Origin: Chloroflexota bacterium | GTDB taxonomy: Bacteria > Chloroflexota > Dormibacteria > CF-121 | DNA length: 38,543 nucleotides | Assembly: GCA_005881425.1 (NCBI GenBank) | Contig: VBIC01000107.1 | Location: forward strand, 7,380-45,922 | Direction of reading: 5' to 3' | Shown: positions 8,408-35,047 of the stretch, piece by piece | How the letters are laid out: each line of letters starts with the position of its first letter | Numbering within the stretch: position 1 is the first letter of the stretch | Notes under the pieces: model-generated | What the model saw: only the letters and a program-made list of their open reading frames with translations | What the model was told of the DNA's origin: nothing | Databases searched by the model: none | Translations under genes and position numbers: made by a program

Positions 8408-8916
8408 GAGTCGGCGTCCTCGGCCGCCAGCGGCGCGTAGAAGCGCCGCCAGGCGATGACGGCCGCGGTCATGACGAGGACCAGTCCGGTGAGGAGGGCC
8501 AGCTCGACTCCCTGCTGCGCCCAGCTGAACCGGCCCTGCTGGGCGGCCTGGGCGGTGATGATCAGGATGCGCCGGATGCCGGCGATGATGGCCACGATCA
8601 GGAAGGGCTCGGCCGCGAGCGTGCGTGCCTGGATCGTGACCCGAACCGTGTGCAGCAGCTCCGCGATGATGAACAGGATCAAGCCGCGGTCCAGGAAGTT
8701 GACCACGATGGGCAACGGATCCTTCTGCGAGGCGACCTCCGGCAGGGAGACGATCGCGCTCCAGAGCACGAACGCTCCGGCCACCACCAGCAGGATCGCG
8801 ACCACCACGTAGATCCCATCCTCGACCGTCTCCATGGCCAGGACGATGCCGCTGTGGCCGCGCGTTCGTGGACGCTTCAATGGATAACCGCTGCGTGATT
8901 GCGACGTCCCCGCCAT
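8404..8916 (-). CDS. PsiE-like (phosphate-starvation-inducible E family) membrane protein
   Basis: The 170-residue product has four predicted membrane segments: GIYVVVAILLVVAGAFVLW, ILFIIAELLHTVRV, FLIVAIIAGIRRILIIT and LALLTGLVLVMTAAVIAW. The second helix, with AELLHTV, resembles the PsiE family, whose biochemical role is not established. I choose ATG 8916 because TATTCT lies exactly six bases upstream on the minus strand (8928-8923), matching other genes here; the first 27 residues would then be a basic cytoplasmic tail. A downstream ATG at 8835 is the alternative. It is divergent from the MetE-like pair. Confidence 0.75.
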   Translation of the reverse strand: MAGTSQSRSGYPLKRPRTRGHSGIVLAMETVEDGIYVVVAILLVVAGAFVLWSAIVSLPEVASQKDPLPIVVNFLDRGLILFIIAELLHTVRVTIQARTLAAEPFLIVAIIAGIRRILIITAQAAQQGRFSWAQQGVELALLTGLVLVMTAAVIAWRRFYAPLAAEDADS

Positions 8917-8928
8917 CGCACCAGAATA
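8917..8928 (-). promoter_or_regulatory. -10 hexamer of a predicted leaderless PsiE-like transcript
   Basis: On the minus strand TATTCT (8928-8923) is followed by six bases and then ATG 8916. No Shine-Dalgarno sequence lies between, so transcription should begin at or next to the start codon. Confidence 0.6.
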
Positions 8929-8980
8929 GCGTGTGCCTCCCGGGCGGCCGGAACCGACGTCCACGTGTGACCCCGTCCGC

Positions 8981-8995
8981 TAGACTGGCGCCATC
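8981..8995 (+). promoter_or_regulatory. -10 hexamer followed by ATC start (leaderless)
   Basis: TAGACT (8981-8986) is followed by six bases and then ATC 8993. The TAG is an in-frame stop for the downstream gene, so its frame cannot extend further upstream. No ATG, GTG or TTG occurs in frame until GTG 9041. Confidence 0.55.
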
Positions 8996-9946
8996 GACAT
9001 CCTCGCCTTTCAACCAGGTATCTTTCCGCGCTCGGAGCGGGTGGTCGCGGCCACCCGCGGGCTCGATCGCGGCCGGGTCACGGCGGCGTCGGTCGATGAG
9101 GCGTTCGCCCAGGACCTGCGGGACTTCGTGCGGGTGCAGCAGGATGCACAGCTCGACTACTTTTCGGACGGCCTGCTTCGCTGGCAGGACATCTTCCGGC
9201 CACTGGTGGAGGCCGCGCCTGGACTGGCCGCGCACAGGCTGGTCCGCTGGTTCGACAACAACGCCTTCTTCCGCGCTCCCCAGCCGCGCGGATCGCTGAC
9301 CGCGATCGCCGCGCCCGACGCGATCGTTCCCGATGGGATCGTGCCCCGGCCGCGCGTCGCCACGCTCCCGTCTCCCTACCTGTTCTCCCGGGCGGCGGTG
9401 GGCGTCAAGGACCGTAACGCCTTCATGCTGGAGCTGGCCCAATCCGTGCTCCGGCCGGCCGTGGAGCGGCTCTTCCAGGAGGGCTGCGAGCTGGTCCAGC
9501 TGCAGGAGCCGTGGCTCCCCTATTTCGGCATCGCGGACGGTGATTGGGCGCCTTTTAAGGAGGCCCTGGCCGCCACGCGCGGCGACGCCGGAGCGCGAAT
9601 CGTGCTCTCCCTTTACTTCGGCGACGCCGGCCCCCACCTGCCGCGGCTCAAGCGCCTGCCGGTTGATGCCCTGGGCATCGACCTGGTCGAGACCGACGTC
9701 GCCGAGCTCGGGTCAGGCTGGGAGATGGGACTGGTCGCCGGCTGCCTCAACGGCAGGAGCTCGCTGCTGGAGTCCCTGGACGAGACCGTGGACCTGATCC
9801 GTCACCTGGCGGCCTCGGTCCGGCCCACCACGCTGTACGTGTCCTCGAACAGCGACCTCGAGCTGCTGCCCACGGCCGTGGCCGAGAAGAAGGTGCTCCT
9901 GCTGGGTGAGGCCGCCCGCCGGGCTAAGGAGCGGGTGGCGGCATGA
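8993..9946 (+). CDS. MetE-like (COG0620) TIM-barrel protein without zinc ligands; probable ATC start
   Basis: The product resembles the C-terminal barrel of cobalamin-independent methionine synthase: LPSPYLFSRAAVG, LVQLQEPWLPYFG, GIDLVETDVAEL, GCLNGRSS and YVSSNSDLELLP. The positions that hold His-x-Cys and the last Cys in active MetE read LSLYFGD and SSNSDLE, so the zinc site appears lost. Family-like N-terminal sequence (DILAFQPGIFPRSERVV) begins at 8993, upstream of GTG 9041, and the only initiator available is ATC. From ATC 8993 it is 317 residues. Its stop overlaps the next gene's ATG (ATGA), so the two are coupled and probably form a complex. It could be a substrate-binding or methyl-donor partner; this is inference. 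Confidence 0.8.
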   Translation: MDILAFQPGIFPRSERVVAATRGLDRGRVTAASVDEAFAQDLRDFVRVQQDAQLDYFSDGLLRWQDIFRPLVEAAPGLAAHRLVRWFDNNAFFRAPQPRGSLTAIAAPDAIVPDGIVPRPRVATLPSPYLFSRAAVGVKDRNAFMLELAQSVLRPAVERLFQEGCELVQLQEPWLPYFGIADGDWAPFKEALAATRGDAGARIVLSLYFGDAGPHLPRLKRLPVDALGIDLVETDVAELGSGWEMGLVAGCLNGRSSLLESLDETVDLIRHLAASVRPTTLYVSSNSDLELLPTAVAEKKVLLLGEAARRAKERVAA

Positions 9947-11103
9947 AAGCTCTGCTCACGCACGAGGTCGGCTCCCTGGACAAGCCCGGTTGGCGGGTCA
10001 AGGCCTTCGCCGGCAAGCCGCTGGCTGAGGCCGACTACGAGGAGGCGCGCCATTGGGGCGAGCGCCTCCAGGTCCCCGACTATCCGAAGCTGGTCGAGCT
10101 GCTCCGGCAGAGCCCGCTGAACCGAGAACAGAAGCATGAGGTGCAGCGCTGGTCGAGCCGGTATGCGGTCCGGCTCCTCGAATCGGCCGGGCTCGACGTC
10201 GTCTACGACGGCGAGCAGCAGCGCACCGAGATGTACGACTGGACGGTGAAGCACTCGCTCGGCTTCGAAGCCAGGGGCAGCGTGCGGGCCTTCGACAACA
10301 AGTACTACACCAAGGCAGCCGTCACCGGTCCGCCCGGGCTGCGCGCACCTTTCCACAACGACGAGTTCCAGTACGTCAAGTCGGTCGCCGGCGCGGAGCT
10401 GAAAGTGCCCGCCACCGGCGCCTACACGATTGCCGACTGGTCCTTCGACGAGCGCTACGGCAAGCCCACCGACCTGCGCCGTGCCGCGGCGGAGCGGCGC
10501 GCGGAGCGAAAGGCCGGCCGGCGAGCCTTCGTGCTGGACGTGGCGCGCAAGATCATCCGGCCCAACATCGAGGCCCTGCTCGATCTCGGCGCGGGCTGGA
10601 TCCAGGTCGACGAGCCCGGCGCCTCGACCGAGCCCGACGAGCTGAGCCTGTTCGCGGAAAGCTTCAACGCCACGGTCGAGGGCCTGCCGGCCACCTTCTC
10701 GACCCACCTGTGCTTCAGCGATTACCGGCTGTTCTTCCCGGCCATCGAAGCCATGTCCGCCTGCCGCCAGTTCGCGGTCGGCTTCGCCAACTACGACAGC
10801 CGGGAGCTGGGAACCAGCCCCGCGAACCGTCCCGGGTACCAGGTCATCGCAAAATTCCGGGACCTGCCCTACGCGCCGATCCTGGGCCTGGGCGTTCTCG
10901 ACATCCACACCGACTTCATCGAGCCGCCGGAGCTGGTCCGTGACCGGATCCTTTACGCGGTGGACGTCTTCGACGATCCCAACCGGATCCACGTGACGCC
11001 GGACTGCGGCCTGCGCACACGCTCCTGGGAGGTCGCCTACACCAAGCTGCGCAACATGGTGGCAGGCGTCCAGCTGGCCAAGAAGGAACTGCGCCTGAAC
11101 TGA
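9943..11103 (+). CDS. MetE-like methionine synthase II family protein (zinc site present)
   Basis: The 386-residue protein starts LLTHEVGSLDKPGWRVKAF, typical of short MetE/YxjG-like proteins. It carries zinc-ligand motifs: His-x-Cys in FSTHLCFSDY and a distal Cys in HVTPDCGLRTRSWE. The central IQVDEPG motif also matches the homocysteine barrel of MetE. It lacks the N-terminal folate-binding barrel of full-length MetE (about 750 residues), so the methyl donor may not be methyl-tetrahydrofolate. Short core-MetE-like proteins are known to act as folate-independent methionine synthases in some bacteria, sometimes with a partner protein. Coupling to the zinc-less paralogue upstream supports a two-component enzyme. 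The exact reaction is unproven. Confidence 0.87.
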   Translation: MKALLTHEVGSLDKPGWRVKAFAGKPLAEADYEEARHWGERLQVPDYPKLVELLRQSPLNREQKHEVQRWSSRYAVRLLESAGLDVVYDGEQQRTEMYDWTVKHSLGFEARGSVRAFDNKYYTKAAVTGPPGLRAPFHNDEFQYVKSVAGAELKVPATGAYTIADWSFDERYGKPTDLRRAAAERRAERKAGRRAFVLDVARKIIRPNIEALLDLGAGWIQVDEPGASTEPDELSLFAESFNATVEGLPATFSTHLCFSDYRLFFPAIEAMSACRQFAVGFANYDSRELGTSPANRPGYQVIAKFRDLPYAPILGLGVLDIHTDFIEPPELVRDRILYAVDVFDDPNRIHVTPDCGLRTRSWEVAYTKLRNMVAGVQLAKKELRLN

Positions 11104-12711: not shown

Positions 12712-14117
12712 CGGTAGCGCGGGGCCAGCTCCGGCACGTTGCCCAGCTGGAGCAGCCGGCGGCTCTGCTCCTGGAAGGCCAGGACGGCGGCAGGCTCGCT
12801 CAGCCCGGGGATGCAGATCACCTCACCGGCCTCGAGCGCTCGCAGTGACGCCGCCACCACGTCGGCCGGCTCCATCCGCGGACCCAGCCGGCTGGGATCG
12901 ACGCCCAGCCGATCGTGGAACTCCGTCTTGACGATGCCGGGGCAGCAGACCTGGATCCGAACCCCGCTCTCGCGCACCTCGCCGGCGAGTGTCTCGCTGA
13001 AGGCCACCAGGTAGGCCTTGGCCCCGGCGTAGACGGCTCGCGCGGGCATGGGATCGGCCGGAAGGGAGCCGGCGAAGGCCAGCAACGAGGCGACGTTCAC
13101 GATCGATCCCCGACCTCGCTCCACCATAGCGGGCAACGCCGCCCGCGCCAGGAGCGTCGAGGCCAGCACATGCAGGTCGATCAGCTCGCGGGCGCGTTCC
13201 TCGGGCAGGCGGACGAAAGGCATGTAGCCGCCGAAGCCGGCGCTGTTGACGAGCAGGTCGACAGGCCGTGCCCGCAGGCGGGCGGCGACCGCCGCCAGGG
13301 CGGTGCGGTCGGTCAGGTCGGCTGCCATCACCTCGACTGACGAGCCCGTTTCCTGCTCGAGCCGCCGGGCCAGCTCCTCCAGCCGCTCGCGCCAGCGCGC
13401 CACCACTACCAGGTCGTACCGCTCGCGAGCGAGACGCTCCGCGTAGGCCTGGCCGATGCCCGACGAGGCGCCCGTCACCAGCCCACTGAGCTCCTTGAGC
13501 AGCCAGGCCAGGATGAGCCCGCTGACGAAGCCGCCAACGTGAGCGAAGAAGGCGACTCCGCCGCCGCCCTCGGGGACGCCCAGCGAGAGGTAGGCGTTGA
13601 GCGCCTGGAGCGCGATCCAGTAGCCGATGAAGACCATCGCGGAGAGGCGGACCAGGAAGAACGGCACGATGAAGGTCAGCACTCGCGCCCTGGGGTAGAA
13701 GAGGACGTAGGCGGCGAGGACGCCGGAGATGGCGCCGCTGGCGCCCAGCGTGGGCACCTGTGAGCTGGGGTCGGCCGCGACCTGGAGCAGGCTGCCGGCG
13801 ACGCCCGCCACCAGGTAGAGCAGGATGTATTTCAGCTCTCCCAGCCGGTCCTCCACGTTGTTGCCGAAGATCCAGAGGAAGAGCATGTTGCCCCCCACAT
13901 GGAGCAGGCTGGCGTGCAGGAAGAGCGAGGAGAGCAGGGTTCCGAGATGGCGGCCGGCGGCGATGTCGGCGGGAATCAGGGCGTAGCGGCGGACGATCGC
14001 CGCGTCCATCACCGGGCTCTGAGCCACGTAGAAATAGATCGCCAGGTTGAGGATGATCAGCCCGTAGGTCAGCAGCGCCGGCCGCCGGGTCGGGTTCTCG
14101 TCCTTGAGCGGGATCAC
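12696..14117 (-). CDS. Rhomboid intramembrane protease fused to a short-chain dehydrogenase
   Basis: One uninterrupted frame of 473 residues encodes two complete domains. Residues 1-209 are a rhomboid protease: it starts IPLKDENPTRRPALLTYG, has HVGGNMLFLWIFGNNVEDRLG, the catalytic serine in TLGASGAISG (Ser127) and the catalytic His in FFAHVGGF (His193). Residues from about 210 are an SDR: VTGASSGIG (about 214-222), NSAGFGG, VNVASLLAF and the YAGAK catalytic pair. The last rhomboid helix (LILAWLLKE) runs straight into the first SDR strand (LSGLVTG) with no linker and no internal start that would keep that strand. It starts GTG 14117, overlapping the aldolase stop by GTGA. This topology would tether an NAD(P)-dependent oxidoreductase to the inner face of the membrane. 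The fusion is seen in sequence; its meaning is unknown. Confidence 0.88.
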   Translation of the reverse strand: MIPLKDENPTRRPALLTYGLIILNLAIYFYVAQSPVMDAAIVRRYALIPADIAAGRHLGTLLSSLFLHASLLHVGGNMLFLWIFGNNVEDRLGELKYILLYLVAGVAGSLLQVAADPSSQVPTLGASGAISGVLAAYVLFYPRARVLTFIVPFFLVRLSAMVFIGYWIALQALNAYLSLGVPEGGGGVAFFAHVGGFVSGLILAWLLKELSGLVTGASSGIGQAYAERLARERYDLVVVARWRERLEELARRLEQETGSSVEVMAADLTDRTALAAVAARLRARPVDLLVNSAGFGGYMPFVRLPEERARELIDLHVLASTLLARAALPAMVERGRGSIVNVASLLAFAGSLPADPMPARAVYAGAKAYLVAFSETLAGEVRESGVRIQVCCPGIVKTEFHDRLGVDPSRLGPRMEPADVVAASLRALEAGEVICIPGLSEPAAVLAFQEQSRRLLQLGNVPELAPRYRQRPE

Positions 14118-15025
14118 GTGGCGCGGGGAACGGCGTGGGAGAGGAGGCCGGCATCCGCCAGCAGCCTGCGTATCTCGTCTCGCTCCTCGGCCGCGGCGGG
14201 ACGCAGCGGCGCCCGCGGCAGCCCGTGCTCGAAACTCAGCTCCGCCAGGCCGGCCTTGAGGCGGGCGATCGCGCTGGCCCCGCTGAGCCACGCGGCCAGC
14301 GGTTTCAAGGCCGCCTGCAGGCGGCGGGCCGTGGACTCGTCGCCGCCTGAGGCCGCCCGGCGGATCGCGGCGCAGCCCGCGCCGGCGAGGTTGGCCAGGG
14401 CCGGTATCGCGCCGTCGGCGCCCAGCGCCATGGCCTCCGCCAGCTGCGCGCCCACGCCGGGAAGGAGGACCAGGTCGGGACGGCCCTGCCTGACCCGAGC
14501 CAGCTTGGCCAGGTTGCCCGAGGAGTCCTTGACGCCCGCGATCCTGGAATGGGCGGGAAGCCCCAGGAACCACTCGGCCGGAAGGTCGACGCCGGTGAGC
14601 TGGGGCACGTTGTAGACCAGGATCGGAATCGGACTCTCGCCGGCGACGGCCGTGTAGTGAGCGTGAAAGTCGGCGGCGACGAGGTCGCGGCGGTAAAGGC
14701 TCGGCGTGATGACCAGGGCGCATTCGGCGCCCGCGGCCGCGGCGGCCTGAGTCCGCTCGATCGTCTGCCGGGTCGACTCGGCGCCGGTGCCGGCGAGCAG
14801 GCGCAGCGGCGGCGGCAGGGCCAGGCGTAATGCCTGGATCCATTCGATCCGCTCCCGGTCGGAGAGCGCGGCCGCCTCGCCGTTGGAGCCCAGCGCCACC
14901 ACGCCGTCTATCCCCGCGTCACGGAGATGCTCGAGGAAGGGTCTCACGGGCGCGCCCAGGGTCCCGCCGGCTTCGAAGGGAGTGGCGATGGGCGGGAAGA
15001 CGCCCCGCAGCCAGGCCGGTCCCAT
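14114..15025 (-). CDS. DapA/NAL-superfamily aldolase (dihydrodipicolinate-synthase-like)
   Basis: The 303-residue barrel has the Schiff-base lysine in GVKDSSGN and the catalytic tyrosine in YNVPQ. The substrate loop reads GSNGE rather than the GTTGE of true dihydrodipicolinate synthases; GSNGE is seen in 4-hydroxy-2-oxoglutarate aldolases and relatives, so lysine synthesis is not assured. The enzyme would cleave or form a 2-keto acid by pyruvate aldol chemistry. ATG 15025 has TACACT exactly six bases upstream on the minus strand, predicting a leaderless mRNA. The downstream rhomboid-SDR gene is coupled by a four-base overlap. Confidence 0.9.
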   Translation of the reverse strand: MGPAWLRGVFPPIATPFEAGGTLGAPVRPFLEHLRDAGIDGVVALGSNGEAAALSDRERIEWIQALRLALPPPLRLLAGTGAESTRQTIERTQAAAAAGAECALVITPSLYRRDLVAADFHAHYTAVAGESPIPILVYNVPQLTGVDLPAEWFLGLPAHSRIAGVKDSSGNLAKLARVRQGRPDLVLLPGVGAQLAEAMALGADGAIPALANLAGAGCAAIRRAASGGDESTARRLQAALKPLAAWLSGASAIARLKAGLAELSFEHGLPRAPLRPAAAEERDEIRRLLADAGLLSHAVPRAT

Positions 15026-15037
15026 GCCGCCAGTGTA
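15026..15037 (-). promoter_or_regulatory. -10 hexamer of a predicted leaderless aldolase transcript
   Basis: TACACT on the minus strand (15037-15032), six bases, then ATG 15025. No Shine-Dalgarno sequence is present. Confidence 0.6.
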
Positions 15038-15118: not shown

Positions 15119-15127
15119 TGCTACTCT
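15119..15127 (+). promoter_or_regulatory. Extended -10 for the sugar-binding lipoprotein
   Basis: TGC precedes TACTCT (15122-15127), an extended -10 shape. GTG 15137 is nine bases and ATG 15143 fifteen bases downstream, so the mRNA would have a leader of only a few bases. Confidence 0.45.
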
Positions 15128-15136: not shown

Positions 15137-16474
15137 GTGGGCATGGCTGGCGCGCGCCGATTCAGCCGCCGCGCCTTCCTCGACCGCGGGCTTCGGACCG
15201 CGCTCGCGGTCACCGGTGGGCTCGAGGCGGCGTCGCTGCTGGCCGCCTGCGGCGCGCCTGGCGCCGCGGCCTCACCGACCGCGCCGCCGGGGGCGACTGT
15301 GATCCGGGCGCTCCTCTTCGACCAGGTCGGCTACGATCCGGCCCTCTTACAGGCGCTGGCCGCGCAATTCCGCTCGCGTCACCAGGGCAGCGTCTTCGTC
15401 AGCGTCGAGACCGCGCACTACCGCGACCTCTACGAAAGCGTCCTCGCCGCCAGCCTGAGCAGGCCCGCTCCCTACGACGTGGTCGCCGTCGACCAGGTCT
15501 GGGTCCCGGAGCTGGCCGCCGCCCACCAGCTGCTGCCCATCAGCCCACATCTCGACGACGCAGCCCGCGCCGACCTGGCGCCGACCCTCCTGGACGCCTT
15601 CTCCTACGGCGGCACGCCCTTCGCCATGCCGCAGGTGCTCAACGTACAGAGCCTTTACTACAACAGCAGCCACCTTCGGGCCGCGGGCTTTGCCGGCCCG
15701 CCCCGGACACTCGAGGAATGGCACTCGCAGATGACGGCGCTCAAGGCTCACGAGATCCCCTACACCGATTCCTGGGCGGAGGGCGAGGGACTGGTCTCCG
15801 ATTTCGTGCGATTCGCCGCCCAGTTCGGAGGCGACCTCTTCGACGGCGAGGGGCGTCCCCGACTCGACACCCAGCCCGTGCAGCGGGCCGCCTCCTTCAT
15901 GCGCCAGCTGATCGACGAGCAGCTGGTCCGGCCCGACGTGGCGGCCACCAACGAGCCTGACGCGATGCGCTCCTTCGTCACCGGTCAGGTCAGCTACACC
16001 ACCAACTGGAACTTCGTCTTCGGCGCGATGAGAGACCCCGCTTACTCCCGGATCATCGGCCAGGGCTCGGTGGCGCCGATCCCGGCCAGCGCCGCCGCGG
16101 GACGCCAGGCGGCTTCCGTCAGCGGATTCCTGGGGCTGTCGGTGCTGGCCAACACGAAGTCGCCGGAGCTGGCCTTCGAGTGGCTCCGTTACCTGGTCAG
16201 CCCCGAGGTCCAGGCACAGCAGCTGACCCAGCTCCCGATCTGGACCTCGCTCCAGAACTCGGCCGCGTTCCAGAAGGCCAACCCGGCCATGAGCGTCTTC
16301 CTCACCAACCTGGCCAACGCCCGGCCCCGGCCGCAGCTGACCCACTACGTGGAGGCGTCGGCGGTGCTCCAGCATCACCTGCACGACCTGGTCATCGGGG
16401 CGACGCAGCCTGGCCAGGCGCTGCACGACGCCCAGACCGAGCTGCTCGCGCTCTGGGCCCGCTGGCACAGCTGA
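15137..16474 (+). CDS. Tat-exported lipoprotein, ABC-type sugar-binding protein
   Basis: The N-terminus carries a twin-arginine motif (FSRRAFLDRG) followed by a hydrophobic stretch and a lipobox (LLAACG), so it is probably a Tat-exported lipoprotein. The body resembles family-1 extracellular solute-binding proteins: YDVVAVDQVWVPELAA, MPQVLNVQSLYYN, WHSQMTALK, SGFLGLSVLANTKSPELAFEWLRYL. These usually bind oligosaccharides for an ABC importer. No permease or ATPase genes are adjacent, so it is an orphan here. I use GTG 15137 (ATG 15143 is equally possible) because it follows the -10; a frame reaching GTG 15053 would add an implausible pre-Tat extension. Confidence 0.87.
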   Translation: MGMAGARRFSRRAFLDRGLRTALAVTGGLEAASLLAACGAPGAAASPTAPPGATVIRALLFDQVGYDPALLQALAAQFRSRHQGSVFVSVETAHYRDLYESVLAASLSRPAPYDVVAVDQVWVPELAAAHQLLPISPHLDDAARADLAPTLLDAFSYGGTPFAMPQVLNVQSLYYNSSHLRAAGFAGPPRTLEEWHSQMTALKAHEIPYTDSWAEGEGLVSDFVRFAAQFGGDLFDGEGRPRLDTQPVQRAASFMRQLIDEQLVRPDVAATNEPDAMRSFVTGQVSYTTNWNFVFGAMRDPAYSRIIGQGSVAPIPASAAAGRQAASVSGFLGLSVLANTKSPELAFEWLRYLVSPEVQAQQLTQLPIWTSLQNSAAFQKANPAMSVFLTNLANARPRPQLTHYVEASAVLQHHLHDLVIGATQPGQALHDAQTELLALWARWHS

Positions 16475-16509: not shown

Positions 16510-16521
16510 TAACGTGAGCGC
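16510..16521 (+). promoter_or_regulatory. -10 hexamer of a predicted leaderless membrane-protein transcript
   Basis: TAACGT (16510-16515), six bases, then GTG 16522; no Shine-Dalgarno sequence. Confidence 0.55.
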
Positions 16522-16956
16522 GTGCCGTCGACTGTCACCGGCTACCGGCTGCTCCTGATCTACGGCCTGCTCGCGCTGAGCGCCTTCCTGCTGGCCTTCA
16601 CCGCCATCACCATCCTCGGCCGGCGGCAGTGGTCGGGGCTGGGGGTGATGGAGTCGCTGCTGGCCCGGCTCTGCGGCGCGGCGCTGCTGGGCGCCATCGC
16701 CGTGGGGAGCCTCTCGGGTGTGGTGACCACCCGCATCTTCCCCCTCGCCGGGGCCTTCGATCCGGGCACCGAGCCCGCCCGGGTGCAGGGAGCCCGCCTG
16801 CAGACGGAGCTGGCCCTGCTGGTCGCCCTGGGCCTGACCGTGGCGGCGGTGGTCCGCCTCGAGGCGTCGCTGCGCCGGGGTGTGGGACCTGTCCGGTCGG
16901 AGGGCGAGGACTGGGAGGTGGACGCGGCCGAGGTGGTGCGCCGCCGGACACCCTGA
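16522..16956 (+). CDS. Three-helix membrane protein of unknown function
   Basis: The 144-residue protein has three hydrophobic segments: LLLIYGLLALSAFLLAFTAI, LCGAALLGAIAVGSLSGVV and LALLVALGLTVAAVVRL. It ends in a charged cytoplasmic tail (EDWEVDAAEVVRRR). I recognise no family. The GTG start fits the TAACGT-six-base spacing. It is convergent with the amino-acid-binding lipoprotein gene, two bases away, and 47 bases behind the sugar-binding gene. Confidence 0.72.
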   Translation: MPSTVTGYRLLLIYGLLALSAFLLAFTAITILGRRQWSGLGVMESLLARLCGAALLGAIAVGSLSGVVTTRIFPLAGAFDPGTEPARVQGARLQTELALLVALGLTVAAVVRLEASLRRGVGPVRSEGEDWEVDAAEVVRRRTP

Positions 16957-16958: not shown

Positions 16959-17873
16959 TCAGGGAGTCGACGCCGGCGACGGAGTGATCACGACCTGCGA
17001 GGCGGGGATGGCGAGGCTGTCCAGGTTCCATTTGCGCAGGATCTCGCGGTAGGTCCCGTCCGCCTCCAGGGCGAGCATCGCCTGCTGGATCGCGTTGAGG
17101 ACGTCATGGTTGCGCGGGTCGACCGCGATTCCCTCGGTGCCGAGGCGCAGGGCCGGCCCCGCCACCTCCAGCGAATCGGGGTTGCCGTTGACGAAGGTCA
17201 CGGCCACCGGTGAGTCGTCGAGCACGGCGTCCAGGCCGCCGTCGCGCAGGGCCTGCACCGCGACCGTGTCGGTGGCGAAGGTCCTGATGTCGATGTGCCG
17301 CTGGGCGCAGTCGCCGCCGTTCTCGCTGGTCAGGGTGTCCTGGGCGCTGGTGGTGACCTGGACGCCGACCCGCTTGCCGCAGAGGTCGGCCGGCCTCTGG
17401 ATGGCGCTGGGGTTGCCCCTGCGGACCAGGATCGACTCGCCGGCCTGGAAGTAGCCGACGAACGCCACCGAGCGCTGGAGGTCGGGGGTGATGGTCATGC
17501 CCGAGATCGCCGCATCCCCCTTGTGGGCGAGAAGGGCGGTGACGATGCCGGCGTAGTCGGTGGAGACGATGGTGGCGGACAGCCCCATCCGGCTGGCGAT
17601 CGCGTCGGCGATGTCGACGTCGAAGCCGACCGCCTGGTTGGTCGCGGGATCGAGCGACTCCTGGGGCGGATTGATGGTGTCGGAGAGGAAGGTCAGGCTG
17701 CCCGCGCTGACCAGGCTTCGAGGCGCCTTGACCAGGGCCGCCGTCGGGGAAGGGCTCGCCGAGGGGCTGCGCGAGGAGGCGGGCGTGGCCGACCCGGTGG
17801 CGGTCGGGCTGCAGGCTGCCAGCGTGAGCGTCAGCGCGCAAAGCAGCGATGCCCGCCCGGGGAAAGGCGCCAC
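16959..17873 (-). CDS. Amino-acid ABC transporter substrate-binding lipoprotein (SBP_bac_3)
   Basis: The 304-residue protein starts with a signal peptide and lipobox (LTLTLAACSP), then a Ser/Pro/Thr-rich linker. A family-3 solute-binding domain follows: PQESLDPATNQAVGFDVDIADAIASRMG, VSTDYAGIVTALLAHKGDA, DLCGKRVGVQVTTSAQ and WNLDSLAIP. Such proteins bind amino acids for an importer or sensor. No permease or ATPase is nearby. It is divergent from hutH with only 36 bases between start codons, so co-regulation with histidine breakdown, and a histidine-related ligand, are reasonable guesses. GTG 17873 is used; on the minus strand TAGAAT (17890-17885) lies upstream and is a candidate -10. Confidence 0.88.
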   Translation of the reverse strand: MAPFPGRASLLCALTLTLAACSPTATGSATPASSRSPSASPSPTAALVKAPRSLVSAGSLTFLSDTINPPQESLDPATNQAVGFDVDIADAIASRMGLSATIVSTDYAGIVTALLAHKGDAAISGMTITPDLQRSVAFVGYFQAGESILVRRGNPSAIQRPADLCGKRVGVQVTTSAQDTLTSENGGDCAQRHIDIRTFATDTVAVQALRDGGLDAVLDDSPVAVTFVNGNPDSLEVAGPALRLGTEGIAVDPRNHDVLNAIQQAMLALEADGTYREILRKWNLDSLAIPASQVVITPSPASTP

Positions 17874-17909
17874 GATCGCGTGTCATTCTACGGCTAACAT
17901 GGGGACGCC
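17874..17909. promoter_or_regulatory. 36-base divergent promoter region, hutH / amino-acid-binding protein
   Basis: Both genes must be transcribed from this 36-base gap or from inside each other. Plus-strand TAACAT (17895-17900) lies nine bases before the hutH TTG. Minus-strand TAGAAT (17890-17885) lies eleven bases before the GTG of the binding protein. The two -10 elements nearly abut, so one regulator or one polymerase could block the other. Confidence 0.45.
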
Positions 17910-19439
17910 TTGGCCACCATCCTCGACGGCTCCACGCTGAGCCCCGCCGACGTCGTGGCCGTGGCCCGCGAGGGGGCGCCGGTCGCGATCTCGAAGGCGG
18001 CTGGGGCCCGCCTGCGCCGGGCCCGCGAGGTGGTCGACCGCCTGGTGCGGGAGGAGAAGGTCGTGTACGGCCTGACGACCGGGGTCGGCGACCTGCGAAC
18101 GACGCGCATCCCGCCGGCGCAGGTGCGGACGCTGCAGCACAACCTGCTGCGCAGCCATGCCGTGGGCGTGGGGCCGGCGCTGCCCCGCGAGGTGGTACGC
18201 GCCGGGCTGCTGGTGCGGGTCAACCAGTTCTGCCAGGGCTCCTCAGGCGTGCGTCCGGAGGTGGCGGAGCGGATCGTCGATCTGCTCAATCGCGACCTGA
18301 CCCCCTGGGTGCCCGAGGTGGGCTCACTGGGGGCCAGCGGCGACCTGGCGCAGTCCGCCCACGCCGGGCTGGTCCTGATCGGCGAAGGGCACGTGCTCCA
18401 GGACGGCAGCCGCCAGGATGCAGCCGCCGCCCTGCGCGCCGCCCGCCTGCCGGCGCTCGTCCTGGAGGCCAAGGACGCTCTCTCCATCCTGAACGGGACC
18501 CACTTCATGGCCGGCGCGGCCGCCCTGCTCCTCAGCGACGCCGACCGCCTGGTGCTGACCGCCGACACGGTGGCGGCGCTCAGCCTGGAGGCGCTGCGCG
18601 GATCGCGAACCGCCTTCGACCCGCGCATCCACGCGGCCCGTCCGCATCCCGGGCAGCAGGCGTCGGCGGCCCGCATCTTCGCGCTTACCGAGGAGAGCGG
18701 GATCGTCGAGTCGCACGTCCTCTGCGACCGGGTGCAGGACGCCTACTCGCTGCGCTGCGCGGCCCAGGTCCACGGCGCGGTGGCAGACGCCCTCGGCCAT
18801 CTCCGCCGCCAGCTCGAGGTCGAGCTCAACGCCGGGACGGACAACCCGATGGTCTTCCCGGACGACGCGGCGGTTCTCTCCGGCGGCAACTTCCACGGCG
18901 AGCCCCTGGCACTGGCTCTGGACTTCGCGGGGATCGCGCTCAGCGAGCTCGGCAGTATTTCCGAGCGGCGCCTCTTCCGGCTGCTGACCGCGCACCTCTC
19001 CGACCTGCCGCCTTTCCTCAGCCGGCGTTCCGGCGTCAACACGGGCTACATGCTGCTCCAGTACACGGCGGCCGCGCTGGCCACGGACAACGCCCTGCTG
19101 GCCACCCCGGCCAGTGTCCATTCGCTCCCGACCTCGGCCGACCAGGAGGACCACGTGAGCATGGGATGGCATTCCGCCCTGCGGGCGGGCAAGGTGGCGG
19201 ATAACGTCGAGATCATCCTGGCGCTGGAGGCGCTGGCGGCGGCGCAGGGCATCGACCTGCTGGCGCCGCTGCGTCCCGGGCCGCAAACCGCGAAGGCGCA
19301 CGCCCTGATCCGGGCCCGGGTGCCGACGCTGGAGGACGACCGAGCCTTCGGCCCGGAGATCGAGGCGGTCAGGGCCCTGGTCCACGAGGGTGAGCTGGCA
19401 GGGATTGCCGCCCGGGCCCTGGAGGTGGCGCGGCCCTGA
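17910..19439 (+). CDS. hutH: Histidine ammonia-lyase
   Basis: The 509-residue protein has the MIO-forming Ala-Ser-Gly in [15 protein letters not shown] (around residues 142-144). It also has the family motifs [10 protein letters not shown] near the N-terminus, NGTHFMAG and [14 protein letters not shown]. It converts histidine to urocanate and ammonia. The following urocanase gene identifies histidine, rather than phenylalanine or tyrosine, as substrate. The start is TTG 17910; a GGGGA stretch lies just upstream. The downstream gene starts eight bases after its stop. Length is normal for the family. Confidence 0.95.
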
Positions 19440-22005: not shown

Positions 22006-22586
22006 GCGGCCCGGTGTCCGAGACGCCGGTGGGCGAGTACCTGCGGGCGCTCGCCAGCACGGCGGCGGTCCCGGGCGGAGGCAGCGCCGCGGCGCTGGCC
22101 GGCGCCATGGGTTGCGCCCTGGTCAGCATGGTCGCCAAGCTCAGCGCCAAGCGGGCCGCGGACGCAGCCGCTGCGCAGACGCTGGAGCGGCTGGTGCCGG
22201 AGGCGGACCGCCTGATGGAGCGCCTGCTCCAGCTGAGCCAGGAAGACGTCGATGCTTACCGCGAGGTGGTCGCGACCCGCCGCCAGCGGCCCGGGGACCG
22301 CGAGGCGCTGGCCCGGGTCTCGCGGGCCGCGGCCGAGGTCCCGCTCCAGGCGGCCCGGGCCGCCGCCCGGGCGGCCGAGCTGCAGCGGCAGCTGAAGCCG
22401 CTGGCCTGGTCCATGACCGCCTCCGACGCCGAGGCCGCCGGACTCCTGCTCGACACCGGCCTGCGGGCGGCGCTGGCCAACGTGGCCATCAACCTGCCGG
22501 AGCTGGAGGGCGAGGCCAGGCTGCGGATCGAGGCCGACTACGAGACGTTGCGCAAGGCCGTGGGGGGCGCCGCCCCGCTAGTCTGA
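22002..22586 (+). CDS. Formimino-tetrahydrofolate cyclodeaminase
   Basis: The 194-residue, Ala-rich helical protein begins VGEYLRALASTAAVPGGGSAAALAGAMGCALVSMV, matching the cyclodeaminase (FchA / FTCD C-terminal) family. It ends LPELEGEARLRIEADYETLRKAV. It converts 5-formimino-THF to 5,10-methenyl-THF and ammonia. With the preceding transferase, it would channel a one-carbon unit from histidine into folate metabolism. The ATG overlaps the upstream stop by four bases. Confidence 0.93.
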   Translation: MSGPVSETPVGEYLRALASTAAVPGGGSAAALAGAMGCALVSMVAKLSAKRAADAAAAQTLERLVPEADRLMERLLQLSQEDVDAYREVVATRRQRPGDREALARVSRAAAEVPLQAARAAARAAELQRQLKPLAWSMTASDAEAAGLLLDTGLRAALANVAINLPELEGEARLRIEADYETLRKAVGGAAPLV

Positions 22587-24437: not shown

Positions 24438-25660
24438 GCGAGCTGCGGGTGTACGACACGGCCCGGCGCGGTCTGATGCCGTTGCCGACCTCGAGGACGT
24501 CGAGCAGTCCGACCCTCAAGCTCTACGTCTGCGGCATCACTCCCTACGATTCGGGCCACATCGGACACGCGTTCACCTACTGCGCCTTCGACGTGCTCGT
24601 TCGGTGGGTCGAGGCGTCCGGGGTTCGGGTCCGATACGTGCAGAACGTGACCGACGTGGACGACCCGCTGTTCGTCCGCGCCCGGCGCGATCGCGTCCGC
24701 TGGCGTGATCTCGCGCGTCGCCAGACGGCAGGGTTCAGGCGGGACATGTCGAGGTTGGGCTGGCGCCAGCCCGACGTCATGCCGCGCGCCTCGACGGAGA
24801 TCCCGGTCATCCTGCGGGCGATCCGCCGGCTCGACAGACGGGGTTATTCGTACGCGACGGACGCCCTTTACTTCGAGGTCGAGAAGTACCCTCGGTTCGG
24901 CCAGCTTTCGAGGCTGAGCCATCCGGCGATGATGCGGGCGCTGCACCAGCGGGGACTGGCGGGGAAGGTGGGGCCGGACGCCAGACACAACCCGCTCGAC
25001 TTCCAGCTCTGGCGCAGCTCAGAGCCCGGCGAGCCCACCTGGCCCTCGCCCTACGGAGCGGGGCGGCCGGGTTGGCACATCCAGTGCTCCGCCATGGCCA
25101 TGGAACACCTGGGCTACCCGATCGACGTGCACGGGGCGGGTCGGGACCTGGTCTTCCCTCACCACGAGTCGGAGCGGGCGCAGTCGGAGGCGCTGACCGG
25201 ACGCGCGCCCTTCGCCCGAGCCTGGATGCACACCGGAATGGTCCGCTACCAGGGGGCCAAGATGTCCAAGTCGCTCGGCAACCTGGTCCTGGTCCGGCAG
25301 GCGTTGGAGAAGGCATCCCCGGCAGGCCTTCGCCTCTACCTGGCGTCCCATCGTTACCGGCACGATTGGGGCTTCAGCTGGGAAGGCCTGGCCGCCGCAG
25401 CCAGCCTGGCCGATGCGATCGGCGCGGCCGTCGGGGCCAGCCGGCGCCACCGCGATCCGGATACCAGCCGAGGCGCGCCCGCGCCCGACCGGGACCTGTG
25501 GGCCGACTTCAAGGCGGCCATGGACGACGACCTGGACACTCCCCGTGCGATCCGGGTCCTGCGCAGGGCGCTCCTCCAGCGCCGGCCGGCGGCCGTGCGC
25601 CGGATGGCCGGCATCCTCTGCGGCCGCGCGTCCTACCGTCGTTCGCCGGCGTCTCCGTAG
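24434..25660 (+). CDS. MshC-like cysteine ligase (mycothiol-type), CysRS paralogue
   Basis: The 408-residue protein is related to cysteinyl-tRNA synthetase but has the sequence marks of MshC, the cysteine:GlcN-inositol ligase of mycothiol synthesis. It reads YVCGITPYDSGHIGHA where CysRS has CGPTVYD, then YVQNVTDVDDPLF, STEIPVILRAI, zinc-site residues in HIQCSAMAM and FPHHESERAQSEALTG, and KMSKSLGNL. It ends soon after LASHRYRHDWGFSWE and lacks the long tRNA-binding tail, as MshC does. MshC uses ATP to activate cysteine and join it to an amino sugar. A true cysS follows, so this copy need not charge tRNA. Other mycothiol genes are not in the window. Its TAG stop is part of the cysS -10. Confidence 0.8.
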   Translation: MSELRVYDTARRGLMPLPTSRTSSSPTLKLYVCGITPYDSGHIGHAFTYCAFDVLVRWVEASGVRVRYVQNVTDVDDPLFVRARRDRVRWRDLARRQTAGFRRDMSRLGWRQPDVMPRASTEIPVILRAIRRLDRRGYSYATDALYFEVEKYPRFGQLSRLSHPAMMRALHQRGLAGKVGPDARHNPLDFQLWRSSEPGEPTWPSPYGAGRPGWHIQCSAMAMEHLGYPIDVHGAGRDLVFPHHESERAQSEALTGRAPFARAWMHTGMVRYQGAKMSKSLGNLVLVRQALEKASPAGLRLYLASHRYRHDWGFSWEGLAAAASLADAIGAAVGASRRHRDPDTSRGAPAPDRDLWADFKAAMDDDLDTPRAIRVLRRALLQRRPAAVRRMAGILCGRASYRRSPASP

Positions 25661-25670
25661 ACTAGGCCGC
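25658..25670 (+). promoter_or_regulatory. -10 hexamer of a predicted leaderless cysS transcript
   Basis: TAGACT (25658-25663) overlaps the stop codon of the MshC-like gene and is followed by seven bases and GTG 25671. The same hexamer is used before the MetE-like gene at 8981. Confidence 0.55.
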
Positions 25671-27179
25671 GTGAGCCGCTCGCCCAGCGCCGACGGCCGT
25701 CCTCTACTGCTGTTCAATTCGCTTGGCAGGCGGCTCGAGGAATTCACCCCTGTCCATCCACCTCAGGTCGGCGTCTACACCTGCGGCCCGACCGTCTACG
25801 CCTACCCTCACCTCGGCAACCTGCGCGCCTATGTCTTCGCCGACGGGCTTCGCCGGGCGCTGGAGTGGAAGGGCTACGAAGTGCGACAGATCGTGAACAT
25901 CACCGACGTCGGCCACCTGACCTCGGACCAGGACGAGGGCGAGGACAAGATGCTGGTCGCGGCCCTGCGCGAAGGACGCAGCATGCGGGAGATCGCCCAG
26001 ACCTACACCCAGGCCTTCATGGACGACGTCAGGCGCCTCGCCATCCTGCCGGCAACCGTCTATCCGCGCGCCAGCGACCACGTGCCGGAGATGATCGAGT
26101 TCGTCAAGGTCCTGGAGGCCAAGGGTTACACATACGGGCTCCCGACCGGCCTCTACTTCGATACCGGCCGGAGCCAGGACTATGGCCGCCTGGCTCTGCT
26201 CGACCGGGAGGGCGTCCGCGAGGGACGCATCGAGTCGGTCGAGGGCAAGCGCAATGCCGCGGACTTCGCGCTCTGGCGCAGCCGGGTCGGCGAGGCGCGC
26301 CGGGCCATGGAGTGGGACTCGCGCTGGGGGCCGGGCGCGCCCGGCTGGCACCTCGAGTGCTCGGTCATGAGCATGAAGTACCTGGGCAATCACTTCGACA
26401 TCCATACCGGCGGCGTCGACCACCGCGAGGTTCACCACGTGAACGAGATCGCGCAGAGCGAGGCCTATCTCGGAGACGGCGAAGCCTGGGTGCGCTACTG
26501 GCTCCACAACGAGTTCCTGCTCTTCACCAGGGAGAAGATGTCCAAGTCAGCGGGCGGGACGATCCGGCTGGAGGACCTGATCGAGCGTGGCTACCATCCA
26601 TCGGTGTTCCGTCACTTCACGCTGACCGCCCACTACCGAAGCAAGATGAACTTCTCGTTCGAAGCGCTCGACGCCGCCGAAGCCTCGCTGCGACGCCTGC
26701 TGCTGAGGGTCAGGGACCGGCGTCGGGAAGGCGACGGCTCCGGGCAGCGACCCGACTTCCACTCCACACTGGAGAGGCTGAAGTCGGAAGCGGGCCGGCG
26801 CTACCTGCTGGGCATGGACGAGGCGGTCTCGGCGGACCTCAACACTCCGCGGGCGCTGGCGCTGGTCGACGCCTTCACCCAGGACACGAGCCTCGACCGG
26901 CAGGAGGTGCGGGCGCTGCTCGAGGCGGCGGACACGATCCTGGGCCTGGGCTTGCCCGATACGCAGGTCGAGGACCTGAGCGCGAAGTCGGCGATCGAGG
27001 ACTCGGCCGTCGCCGAGATCGAGCGCCTGGTCCAGGCGCGCAGCCGGGCGCGCGCGGCGGCGAGATGGGAGGAAGCCGACGCACTGCGGCGGCAGCTCAA
27101 GGAGCTGGGAGTCCAGGTGACGGACACCGCCGGGGGTACCGAGTGGTACCCGATCCGTCGCCAGCCACCGGCAGTGTGA
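25671..27179 (+). CDS. cysS: Cysteinyl-tRNA synthetase
   Basis: The 502-residue class I synthetase has the HIGH-type signature in TCGPTVYAYPHLGNLRAY, the zinc-site Cys in WHLECSVMSMKYLG and KMSKS. A C-terminal helical tail ends ARWEEADALRRQLKELGVQV, the usual tRNA-recognition part of CysRS. The zinc-site segment reads GGVDHREVHHVNEIAQSE where most CysRS have FPHHENE, a modest variation. I use GTG 25671 because it follows the TAGACT hexamer and ten residues of family-like sequence precede PLLLFNSLGR. It charges tRNA-Cys. It is convergent with the S9 peptidase gene with one base between them. Confidence 0.94.
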   Translation: MSRSPSADGRPLLLFNSLGRRLEEFTPVHPPQVGVYTCGPTVYAYPHLGNLRAYVFADGLRRALEWKGYEVRQIVNITDVGHLTSDQDEGEDKMLVAALREGRSMREIAQTYTQAFMDDVRRLAILPATVYPRASDHVPEMIEFVKVLEAKGYTYGLPTGLYFDTGRSQDYGRLALLDREGVREGRIESVEGKRNAADFALWRSRVGEARRAMEWDSRWGPGAPGWHLECSVMSMKYLGNHFDIHTGGVDHREVHHVNEIAQSEAYLGDGEAWVRYWLHNEFLLFTREKMSKSAGGTIRLEDLIERGYHPSVFRHFTLTAHYRSKMNFSFEALDAAEASLRRLLLRVRDRRREGDGSGQRPDFHSTLERLKSEAGRRYLLGMDEAVSADLNTPRALALVDAFTQDTSLDRQEVRALLEAADTILGLGLPDTQVEDLSAKSAIEDSAVAEIERLVQARSRARAAARWEEADALRRQLKELGVQVTDTAGGTEWYPIRRQPPAV

Positions 27180-27180: not shown

Positions 27181-29307
27181 TTACGGTCCCGGCCCCGAGG
27201 CCCCGGCCAGCAGGGACTCGAAGTAGGCCAGGATGCGCGTCTCCATCGCCTCGCGGTCCCGCTCCGACCGCGGCATGTGGCGCTCGTTGGGATAGATGAG
27301 CAGGTCATAGGGCCGGTTGGCCTTGGTCAGGGCGTCCATCAGGCGCGCCGTGTGCCGGAAATGGACGTTCTCGTCGATCAGGCCGTGGATCAGGAGCAGC
27401 CTTCCCCGGAGCCGGTGGGCGTGGGTCAGGGCGGAGGCCTCGCGATAGCCGTCCGGGTTGTCCCGGGGCGTGCCCAGGTACTTCTCGGTGTAGGCCGTGT
27501 CGTAGCCGTCCCATGAGGTGACCGGCGCTCCGGCCACGCCGACCTGGAACAGGTCGGGCGCCTTGAGCATGGCCATCGCGGTCATGTAACCGCCGTAGCT
27601 CCAGCCGTAGATTCCGACCCGCGAGGCGTCGCCCAGGCCGAGGGAGGCCAGCCAGCGTACGCCCGCAGCCTGGTCTGTGACCTCGCGGTCGCCCAGGCGT
27701 CCGGCGATGGCGGCTTCGAAGCGCAGGCCCCGCCTGGCGGAGCCGCGGTTGTCGATCTTGATCACCAGGAAGCCTCTTTCAGCCAGCATCTGGGCCCGCA
27801 TGTCGACCGTCAGGGCCCAGGTGTCCTGCACGGTCTGGGTCGCCGGGCCGCCGTAGACCGAGACCAGGATCGGCGGCAGCGTCCCGCCCTCGGGGCGGTA
27901 GAGGGCCGCATGCAGGGTGACGCCCTCTTCGCTTTCGAAGGAGTGGAATTCGGGCGGCCGGAGATCGTGGTCCAGGCGCTCAGGTTCGTGCAGGACCGCG
28001 ATCCGGCCGCCGTCGAGGCGCCGGACGACTACCGCGGGCGGCCGGCGCACGCTGTCGAAGACCTCGACCAGGCTGGAGAAATCGGGAGCGAAGACCGCGT
28101 GATGCGTCCCGCCGTCCGCGGTCAGGGCCACCGGCGCACCGCCGTCGAGCGGGACGCGGTACAGGTGCCGCTCCAGCGGGGAGCCGGAGGGGGCGGCGAA
28201 GGCGACCTGCCGGCTCAAGGCGTCGAGGCCGAGCAGGGCGTCCACCGGCCGGTCGTCCCAGGTCAGCCACCGCTGCAGCCGCCCGTCCGGCGCGTGGACC
28301 GAGAGGCGGCGGAAGCCGCCGCTCTCCGAGGACCAGGTGAACTCACCGGTCCGCGGGTCGAAGCGCAGGTCGTCGTGCAGGTTGATCCAGGGGTCGGCCT
28401 GCTCGCTGACCAGGGTCGACGTCCGGCCGGTTGTGGGATCGAAGGCGAGCAGCTCCAGCAGGCGCCAATCGCGGCGCAGCCGCTGGATGAAGAGGCGCCC
28501 GTCGGGGTGCCAGTCGACGCGGGCCAGGTAGTGGTCCTCGGGGTCGCCCAGGTCGAGCCAGCGCACGCCACCCCCGGCTACCGGGGTCACGCCCAGCCGC
28601 CAGCGGACGTTGTCCGCCCCGGCGAAAGGATAGCGGTGCTCCTCGATCTCGATCCGGTCCTGCCCCTGGTGCACGATGGGATAGACCGGGACATGCCGCT
28701 CGTCCACCTGCTCGAAGGCCAGCCAGCGTGAGTCCCGCGAGACCCAGAACCCGGAGTAGCGGTCGAGCTCCTCCTGGGCGACGTACTCGGCGCTCCCGTT
28801 GCCGACTCCGGGCTGGGCGCCCGAGGTCAGCGCCCGCTCGCCGTCCTGATCCAGGACGCGGACCTCACCATCCCGAACGAAGAAGACCAGCCTGCCGTCG
28901 CGCGAGATCTGCGGCGTGATGGCGCCGCTCGTGAGGCGACGAAGACTTCCCGCTTCCCAGCGGTAGAGGTCGCCTTCGATGGGAACCAGCATCACCGGCG
29001 CCTCGGCGGCCCACCAGTACTCCGTGATGCCCACCTCGCGCCGGCGCAGCCGCTCGCGTCGCAGCCGCTCCTGGAGTGACAACTCCGCCTCCCGGCCGGT
29101 CTCCGCCGCGCGGATCAGCACCTCCGTCCGTCCTGTCTCGAGCTCGAACCGCCAGAGGTCGAATACCAGGTCTCCCCGCTCGCTGGCGAGGTAGGTGATC
29201 GCCTTGCCGTCGGGCGAGTAGGCGATCCGGGCCGGGATGCTCATCCCGGGGCGGGGGTAGCGCGCCACGATCGCGGGCGTGATGCGCGTCCCCAGCCGTT
29301 CAGCCAT
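27181..29307 (-). CDS. S9 family dipeptidyl-peptidase IV-like serine peptidase
   Basis: The 708-residue protein has an N-terminal beta-propeller (YSPDGKAITYLASERGDLVF, YSGFWVSRDSRWLAFEQVDE) and a C-terminal alpha/beta-hydrolase domain. The nucleophile is in YGWSYGGYM (Ser about 570), the acid in HGLIDENVHF and the His in YPNERHMP. The DPP-IV-type EQVDE segment argues for a dipeptidyl peptidase rather than an acyl-aminoacyl peptidase. No signal peptide is seen, so it is probably cytoplasmic. ATG 29307 has TAGGCT exactly six bases upstream on the minus strand, predicting a leaderless mRNA. Confidence 0.92.
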   Translation of the reverse strand: MAERLGTRITPAIVARYPRPGMSIPARIAYSPDGKAITYLASERGDLVFDLWRFELETGRTEVLIRAAETGREAELSLQERLRRERLRRREVGITEYWWAAEAPVMLVPIEGDLYRWEAGSLRRLTSGAITPQISRDGRLVFFVRDGEVRVLDQDGERALTSGAQPGVGNGSAEYVAQEELDRYSGFWVSRDSRWLAFEQVDERHVPVYPIVHQGQDRIEIEEHRYPFAGADNVRWRLGVTPVAGGGVRWLDLGDPEDHYLARVDWHPDGRLFIQRLRRDWRLLELLAFDPTTGRTSTLVSEQADPWINLHDDLRFDPRTGEFTWSSESGGFRRLSVHAPDGRLQRWLTWDDRPVDALLGLDALSRQVAFAAPSGSPLERHLYRVPLDGGAPVALTADGGTHHAVFAPDFSSLVEVFDSVRRPPAVVVRRLDGGRIAVLHEPERLDHDLRPPEFHSFESEEGVTLHAALYRPEGGTLPPILVSVYGGPATQTVQDTWALTVDMRAQMLAERGFLVIKIDNRGSARRGLRFEAAIAGRLGDREVTDQAAGVRWLASLGLGDASRVGIYGWSYGGYMTAMAMLKAPDLFQVGVAGAPVTSWDGYDTAYTEKYLGTPRDNPDGYREASALTHAHRLRGRLLLIHGLIDENVHFRHTARLMDALTKANRPYDLLIYPNERHMPRSERDREAMETRILAYFESLLAGASGPGP

Positions 29308-29319
29308 CCCGCCAGCCTA
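29308..29319 (-). promoter_or_regulatory. -10 hexamer of a predicted leaderless S9 peptidase transcript
   Basis: TAGGCT on the minus strand (29319-29314), six bases, then ATG 29307; no separate Shine-Dalgarno leader. Confidence 0.6.
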
Positions 29320-32590: not shown

Positions 32591-32618
32591 GGGGGAGGCG
32601 ACGAGCGTCGCTTCCCCC
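32591..32618 (+). terminator. Hairpin terminator-like structure after nrdJ
   Basis: Bases 32591-32602 pair with 32607-32618 (12 base pairs, one G-U) around a four-base loop, starting eight bases after the nrdJ stop. There is no T-run, so termination efficiency is uncertain. Confidence 0.6.
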
Positions 32619-33071: not shown

Positions 33072-33086
33072 AAGGAGGTGACCCCG

Positions 33087-33152: not shown

Positions 33153-33179
33153 GGTCCGTATCGATCCTTACGTTTCGAG

Positions 33180-33210
33180 CACAGCCGGTGCCCCGATGGC
33201 ACCGGCTGTG
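33180..33210 (+). terminator. Hairpin terminator after the microprotein gene
   Basis: A perfect 13-base-pair stem (33180-33192 with 33198-33210) with a five-base loop, followed by GCATCTT. The T content after the stem is weak, but the stem is the strongest in the window. Confidence 0.65.
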
Positions 33211-33223
33211 GCATCTTGAGGGG

Positions 33224-33637: not shown

Positions 33638-33649
33638 GGCGGCGCGCCG

Positions 33650-33877: not shown

Positions 33878-33905
33878 CCTTCTCCTCCTGCGCGTGTTGC
33901 CGTTC

Positions 33906-33911
33906 AGGATA
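33906..33911 (-). promoter_or_regulatory. -10 for the AsnC-domain gene
   Basis: TATCCT on the minus strand, about 28 bases before ATG 33877. Here a leader with an AGGAGG Shine-Dalgarno is present, unlike the leaderless genes. Confidence 0.45.
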
Positions 33912-33968
33912 CGGCTTTTCGGCCCCGACTCAGGCGCCCGGCCAGCCGGTTCGCCGAGTTCAAGCTCC

Positions 33969-33980
33969 TAAGATAGGGTG
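33969..33980 (+). promoter_or_regulatory. -10 hexamer of a predicted leaderless tdh-kbl transcript
   Basis: TAAGAT (33969-33974), six bases, then ATG 33981. A GTG directly before it (33978) is in frame but less well placed. Confidence 0.6.
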
Positions 33981-35047
33981 ATGACGTCGATGACGGCGGT
34001 CGTCAAGGCGTCCGCCGGACCCGGCGCCGAGCTCGAGCAGGTCGAGATCCCCGAGGCGAAGGGCAAGGACGTCCTGGTCGAGGTCGCGGCCAGCTCCATC
34101 TGCGGCACCGACGTCCATATCTTCGACTGGAATGATTGGGCCCGGGCTCACATCCATCCGCCTCGCGTCTTCGGCCACGAGATGTCGGGCCGGATCGTGG
34201 CGGTGGGCGAGGAGGTGCGGGGGCTCGCGCCGGGCGACTTCATCGCCGCCGAGACCCACGTGGTCGACGGCACCTGCCCTCAGTGCCGCCGCGGGCTCTA
34301 TCACCTGTGTGAGAACCCTCGCCTGCTGGGCGTCGATCGCGACGGGTCCTTCGCCCGCTACGTGCTCCTGCCGGCGGAGAACTGCTGGCGCAACGCGCCC
34401 GGCCTCAGTCCTGAGGTGGCCGCCCTGCAGGAGCCCTTCGGCAACGCGGTGCACGCGGCGACTGCCGGCCCCCTCAAGGACGCCGCCGTGGCCATCTTCG
34501 GCGCCGGTCCGATCGGGCTGTGCGCGGTTGGCATCGCGCGGGCCGAGGGCGCGGCGGCGGTCTTCGTGGTCGAGCCCAACCCGTTCCGGCGGGAGCTGGC
34601 GGAACGGATGGGCGCCGCCGCGGTCTTCGGCCCTTCGGACCGCACCGCGGAGGAATTGCGCCGGGCCAACGGCGGCCTCGGGCTGGACGTGGCCCTGGAG
34701 ATGTCCGGGCACCCGTCGGCGGTCGAGCAGGGGCTCCTGTCCCTGCACCACGGAGCCTGGATGAGCCTCCTCGGCATCGGCGACCGGCCGGTGACTTTAG
34801 ACCTGAACGACCTGGTGGTGACGAAGAGCGTCACCCTCCACGGCATCTTCGGGCGCCGGGTCTGGGATACCTGGGAGCGGACCTCGCGCTATCTGAGCAC
34901 CGGCGCCGTCGACGTGCGCGCCCTGATCACCCACCGCTTCGCGTTGAGCGACTTCCAGGAGGCGATGGCTCAGATGAAGAGCGGTCGCTCGGGGAAGGTG
35001 GTGCTGCTGCCTGACGGCGGCCAGTCCAGTCCGAAAGGAGGGTCACC

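Follow-up and report, generated by a model that had tools for sequence, protein, structure and literature searches.

TANNNT hexamers at a sharp spacing before start codons point to frequent leaderless mRNAs in a high-GC Chloroflexota genome, with probable AUC starts in a few conserved genes

Leaderless genes of Actinobacteria and Deinococcus-Thermus carry a TANNNT hexamer with an information-poor middle at high GC, and about 12 bases separate its first T from the start codon. Both ATG and GTG serve as starts, and Shine-Dalgarno (SD) genes exist alongside (PMC3160421; Cortes et al. 2013, PMC3898074; PMC12340547). The genome described here is alike in all these respects. It differs in belonging to a high-GC Chloroflexota clade, in the share of genes involved (13–22%) and in a few apparent AUC starts. 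Of 12 Chloroflexi genomes, Zheng et al. (2011) detected a leaderless signal in no more than 4, where it covered 4.0–5.7% of genes (PMC3160421).

According to a review (PMC9031893), leaderless mRNAs of E. coli are translated from AUG, whereas GUG, UUG and CUG are much less efficient, and raised IF3 is inhibitory; GUG works better on leaderless mRNA in Mycobacterium smegmatis and Streptomyces. Recognition in the E. coli model mRNAs goes through the 5′-terminal start codon, as is proposed below for the present genes. The conserved AUC starts are unexpected, since GUG, UUG and CUG are reported to be poorly translated, and IF3 to inhibit, in that system. AUC is not mentioned as a start in the available part of the same review, and a literature search combining AUC and leaderless, with partial coverage, found no case.

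The window, a stretch of 38,543 nucleotides, covers positions 7380–45922 of one contig of a metagenome-assembled genome that comprises 2.92 Mb in 227 contigs, is 90% complete and has a GC content of about 69%. For one protein of the window, the closest records with a name belong mostly to Chloroflexota. RpoB of the host shows 79% identity to Chloroflexi bacterium CF_121, 82–83% to same-family genomes and 58–62% to Tepidiforma-type and Ktedonobacteria-labelled genomes, which places the host in Chloroflexota and in neither Actinobacteria nor Deinococcus. The rpoB match in G000 (C171:2274–3358) falls into two pieces with a TAG between them, probably through an assembly error or a frame change in the assembled genome.

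Genes were predicted with our own gene finder based on a codon-usage model, from which all start codons derive. Genome-wide figures refer to 728 kb of the host with 611 gene starts. Upstream sequences were fitted, unsupervised and with free spacing, by a mixture of SD motif, second hexamer and none. A gene-model-free count recorded TARNNT followed by six bases, a codon and 100 open codons. The latter replaced a likelihood test of all 64 codons for extra start codons, which was unusable because a coding model without a signal cannot place starts; every common codon "gained" in it.

The sites in the window are given below; the spacer is the number of bases between hexamer and first codon.

2502..2507, plus strand: TAGGCT before gene 2514/2520–4124, candidate starts ACG 2514 (spacer 6) or ATC 2520 (spacer 12)
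8923..8928, minus strand: TATTCT before ATG 8916 of the PsiE-like gene, 8404–8916 or 8404–8835, start uncertain
8981..8986, plus strand: TAGACT, putative −10 of the MetE-like gene, with ATC following at spacer 6
8993..9946, plus strand: MetE N-terminal-half-like protein, 317 residues, probable AUC start at 8993
9943..11103, plus strand: second MetE half (Meth_synt_2, core MetE-like), ATGA overlap with the first half
15032..15037, minus strand: TACACT, putative −10 of the DHDPS-family aldolase gene 14114–15025, spacer 6
15122..15127, plus strand: TACTCT before the solute-binding protein gene 15137–16474 (GTG), spacer 9
16510..16515, plus strand: TAACGT, putative −10 of gene 16522–16956 (GTG start, no Pfam match, read earlier as a membrane protein), spacer 6
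17885..17890, minus strand: TAGAAT before the SBP_bac_3 gene 16959–17873, spacer 11, back to back with the next site
17895..17900, plus strand: TAACAT before the aromatic amino acid lyase gene 17910–19439 (TTG), spacer 9, divergent and 4 bp from the preceding site
22579..22584, plus strand: TAGTCT, putative −10 of the zinc-binding dehydrogenase (MDR) gene 22591–23541, spacer 6, overlapping the 3′ end of the preceding gene
25658..25663, plus strand: TAGACT, putative −10 of cysS 25671–27179 (GTG), spacer 7
29314..29319, minus strand: TAGGCT, putative −10 of the S9 peptidase gene 27181–29307, spacer 6
33969..33974, plus strand: TAAGAT, putative −10 of tdh 33981–35051, spacer 6 to the first ATG

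A sequence-only reading of this DNA had listed seven hexamers, each exactly six bases before the first codon of an unrelated gene and without an SD site. All seven are present where it put them and at that distance, and GGAG, GAGG and AGGA are absent within 18 bases at the called spacer-6 TANNNT starts of the window. The window holds five copies of the pattern TANNNT-N6-ATG where 1.3 are expected, and none of 100 shuffles reached 5. With starts called by our finder, spacer 6 was matched 5 times in 35 genes over a background of 0.0033 per position (P ~1e-7).

The individual genes vary in how well they fit. TATTCT does stand six bases before ATG 8916 of the PsiE-like gene, yet this start is doubtful: the 27 codons from it to ATG 8835 look non-coding by score, and the Pfam domain starts only past 8835. 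The MDR gene had been counted among the first genes, but it is not one, as only 4 bases separate it from the codirectional gene before it. The membrane gene and cysS are 47 and 10 bases downstream of codirectional genes. In tdh, a second ATG (33990) aligns with position 1 of an NCBIfam L-threonine dehydrogenase model. A seven-base spacing had been proposed for cysS and a DUF1444-like gene; it holds for cysS, and the latter gene was not found among the proteins scanned. Orthologues of the S9 peptidase gene have spacers of 8, 12, 12 and 14 and thus do not keep the spacing of 6, indicating that short leaders occur.

Some divergent genes lie very close together, with start codons 14, 20, 23 and 36 bp apart (L185 15729–15743, L009 9234–9254, L020 13703–13726 and window 17874–17909). 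The hexamers of such pairs overlap or stand back to back on opposite strands; in one example the palindromic ACTATAGT serves both genes at spacer 6. These pairs read as candidate minimal bidirectional leaderless promoters.

Fitting an upstream motif model and testing for a spacing peak over the host genome, the check put forward with the earlier reading, gave a peak: TANNNT stands at spacer 6 before 36 of the 611 gene starts, where about 2 per position would arise by chance (P ~1e-31). Spacers 7 to 11 give 15, 12, 14, 7 and 6, and any other spacer about 2. TANNNT at a sharp 6–7 base distance from the start codon is a genome-wide feature. The mixture model returned the hexamer T77 A93 G43 A46 C43/A39 T95, with 38% of sites at spacer 6, 17% at 7 and the next at 8–10; the motif recovered is TAGACT/TANNNT at spacers 6–12. 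This class added 188 log units over SD alone, and the TAGACT consensus was also recovered from a reversed seed in a smaller sample. In the gene-model-free count, ATG (22) and GTG (26) make up 48 of the 112 sites at spacer 6, and together reach 3–11 at other in-frame spacers. AUG and GUG are used about equally at leaderless-type starts. No −35 consensus was detected, no upstream column exceeding 0.13 bits.

Chance AT-rich words picked out before start codons would give 1.3 matches in the window anyway. They would not give a genome-wide peak at one spacing that is strand-specific and absent with reversed and complemented patterns, and this refutes the explanation, whose probability we regard as negligible.

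TANNNT might mark translation rather than transcription. It could be an upstream in-frame stop that serves coupling or, on an mRNA with a leader, an A/U-rich site for the ribosome or S1. At spacer 6 a TAG or TAA shares the frame of the start codon and ends it, and G is favoured at the third position. Several observations make this very unlikely. About one third of the sites are TAC or TAT, every member of the selected set has T at position 6, and the preferences at positions 4 and 5 fit a −10 box. The excess extends to the out-of-frame spacers 7 and 8, and known leaderless promoters have the same spacing (PMC3160421, PMC12340547).

The peak is shared by relatives. Among 574 genes of the same-family genome G003, 32 have the hexamer at spacer 6 and 21 at spacer 7. 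The peak is also present in one same-class genome (G018), weaker in the genomes G019 and G020 and in Tepidiforma-type genomes, and absent from one Ktedonobacteria-labelled genome. Of two plasmid controls of about 100 genes each, that of Deinococcus radiodurans MP1 shows the peak and that of Cupriavidus, a high-GC, SD-type negative control, does not. Mixture fractions are unreliable in samples of this size (33% in the negative control, where the spacing is diffuse and no TANNNT motif emerges), and therefore only the spacing histogram was relied on there.

Leaderless transcription had been called the default for first genes, with internal genes using overlaps or SD sites instead. The strict TANNNT excess, counted at naive starts, amounts to about 13% of all genes, and the mixture model gives 22%. 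Among first genes the strict excess at spacers 6–11 is about 16%; the mixture-model share is 36% for divergent first genes, 25% for codirectional genes with a gap of at least 30, and 14% for the shorter gaps of operon-internal genes. SD sites account for 32–37% of first genes and outnumber TANNNT in every gene class but the divergent one, where the two are nearly equal. Genes lacking a TANNNT promoter have mainly GGAGG-type SD sites. Leaderless transcription from a −10 element adjoining the start codon is strongly supported by sequence statistics in the host and its relatives, but "default" is too strong for the roughly 16–36% of first genes that fit. The preference for first genes exists as a bias, not a rule, because 14% of internal genes carry the hexamer too.

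The first codon of the MetE-like gene is ATC, a point that the earlier reading overlooked; although not a standard start codon, it is still the probable start. No ATG, GTG or TTG precedes GTG 9041 in this frame (8993–9946), which is closed by the TAG of the gene's own −10 box at codon −4. Fourteen ATC-type orthologues, from three genera and two families, comprise that of the host and 13 others (53–62% identity), of which 12 come from same-family genomes and one from G016, a member of another family. In all 14, TANACT stands before the ATC with a spacer of 6 or 7. In nine of them the reading frame is shut off three codons before the ATC, and none of the three intervening codons is near-cognate to ATG; in G081 a TTG stands at codon −9, which is upstream of the −10 box. 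Three MetE-family models agree in aligning their position 9 with residue 9, which places codon 1 at the model start. G036, of family f2, has TAACGT-N7-ATG and six extra residues. The MetE-like protein is encoded as two genes (8993–11103) overlapping by ATGA, an N-terminal-half-like one and one for the core catalytic half.

A finder limited to ATG, GTG and TTG calls GTG 9041. If the MetE-like gene, and likewise the UbiB-like gene described below, began at the first downstream GTG or ATG, the ATC region would be untranslated. We give this little probability. Codons 1–16 of the MetE-like gene behave like translated sequence, with variation mostly at the third position (13 of 16 columns vary there, 7 and 6 at the other two), and include a conserved PRSE block. 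Codon 17 is GTC or GTT in 5 of the 14 orthologues, and G016 has no GTG at codons 17–18. In the UbiB-like gene of G003 no further ATG comes until codon 79, which lies past the kinase FIKLGQ motif.

The MetE-like mRNA could instead have a leader, with its real start site elsewhere and the AUC reached by an SD-independent 30S route. The spacer of 7 in some family members would agree with this. It is nonetheless rather unlikely, seeing that TANACT is kept while its flanks change and that the spacing stays at 6–7 in 14 of 14. Initiation at AUC 8993, on an mRNA beginning at or close to that codon, is the reading that we retain.

AUC as a general start codon of the host is ruled out, as the gene-model-free count over the genome shows no excess of ATC at spacer 6 (2, against 2–4). 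AUC starts consequently rest on conservation in individual genes, and they appear to be limited to particular conserved ones: MetE-like, UbiB-like and, singly, DUF4032. The UbiB-like gene, from a scan of G003, has TAGGCT, TAGCCT or TACGCT six or seven bases before ATC in all 11 orthologues from a single genus. One orthologue has a GTG at codon −7 and one has far-upstream starts; in the outgroup G002, from a different genus, a TTG stands two codons before the ATC position. By protein-profile alignment, codon 1 falls at the model start or close to it. The DUF4032 gene (L010) has TAACGT-N6-ATC in the host, and G006 has CACAAT-N6-ATG eight codons upstream.

Other candidates were considered. An ABC transporter ATPase gene (L221, L222) shows TAGCGT-N6-ACG with no standard start for 34 codons, a candidate leaderless ACG start; it is kept in two close genomes only (L179, L221, L222), too few to claim. 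Gene 2514/2520–4124 lacks ATG, GTG and TTG in its first 61 codons. ACG 2514 was rejected here, ATC 2520 being the better candidate, as it aligns with the ATG of the sole orthologue found (G001). The start-codon scan also gave GCC, GAT and other odd candidates.

Initiation at a near-cognate codon under IF3 is known from the autoregulation of infC at AUU (cited in PMC9845219). AUC and ACG are near-cognates of the type that IF3 discriminates against. At the infC start position of the present lineage, ACG follows AGGAGG in 12 family genomes and ATC occurs in five class members, seemingly without a standard start, which is consistent with IF3-sensitive near-cognate starts in the lineage. In family f1 infC has a GGAGG site, whereas the MetE and UbiB starts lack an SD site and have the look of leaderless ones.

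Ordinary −10 elements that produce leaderless mRNAs, together with a few conserved leaderless AUC starts, very probably account for these genes. The hexamers would be −10 elements of a housekeeping sigma-70/RpoD-type promoter. If RNA polymerase starts about 6–7 bases past the hexamer, the transcript would begin with the start codon itself or 1–6 bases before it. The mRNAs would be leaderless or nearly so, with ribosomes recognising the 5′-terminal start codon, and the initiator tRNA would read a 5′-terminal AUC with a third-position mismatch. Tentatively, the 5′-terminal AUC may even be a regulatory device that has been kept, with the MetE-like methionine synthase pair and the UbiB-like kinase produced only if initiator tRNA or the balance of IF2 and IF3 permits a mismatched codon at the 5′ end, so that the level of fMet-tRNA or IF3 would set their expression, though we consider this doubtful.

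Gene finders restricted to ATG, GTG and TTG shorten AUC-start proteins and misplace their starts. With predicted leaderless genes about as frequent in this Chloroflexota clade as has been reported for Actinobacteria, the trait extends to another phylum. If proven, leaderless mRNAs that open with AUC would conflict with the AUG requirement of E. coli, and such genes would then be natural substrates for start-codon proofreading in leaderless initiation.
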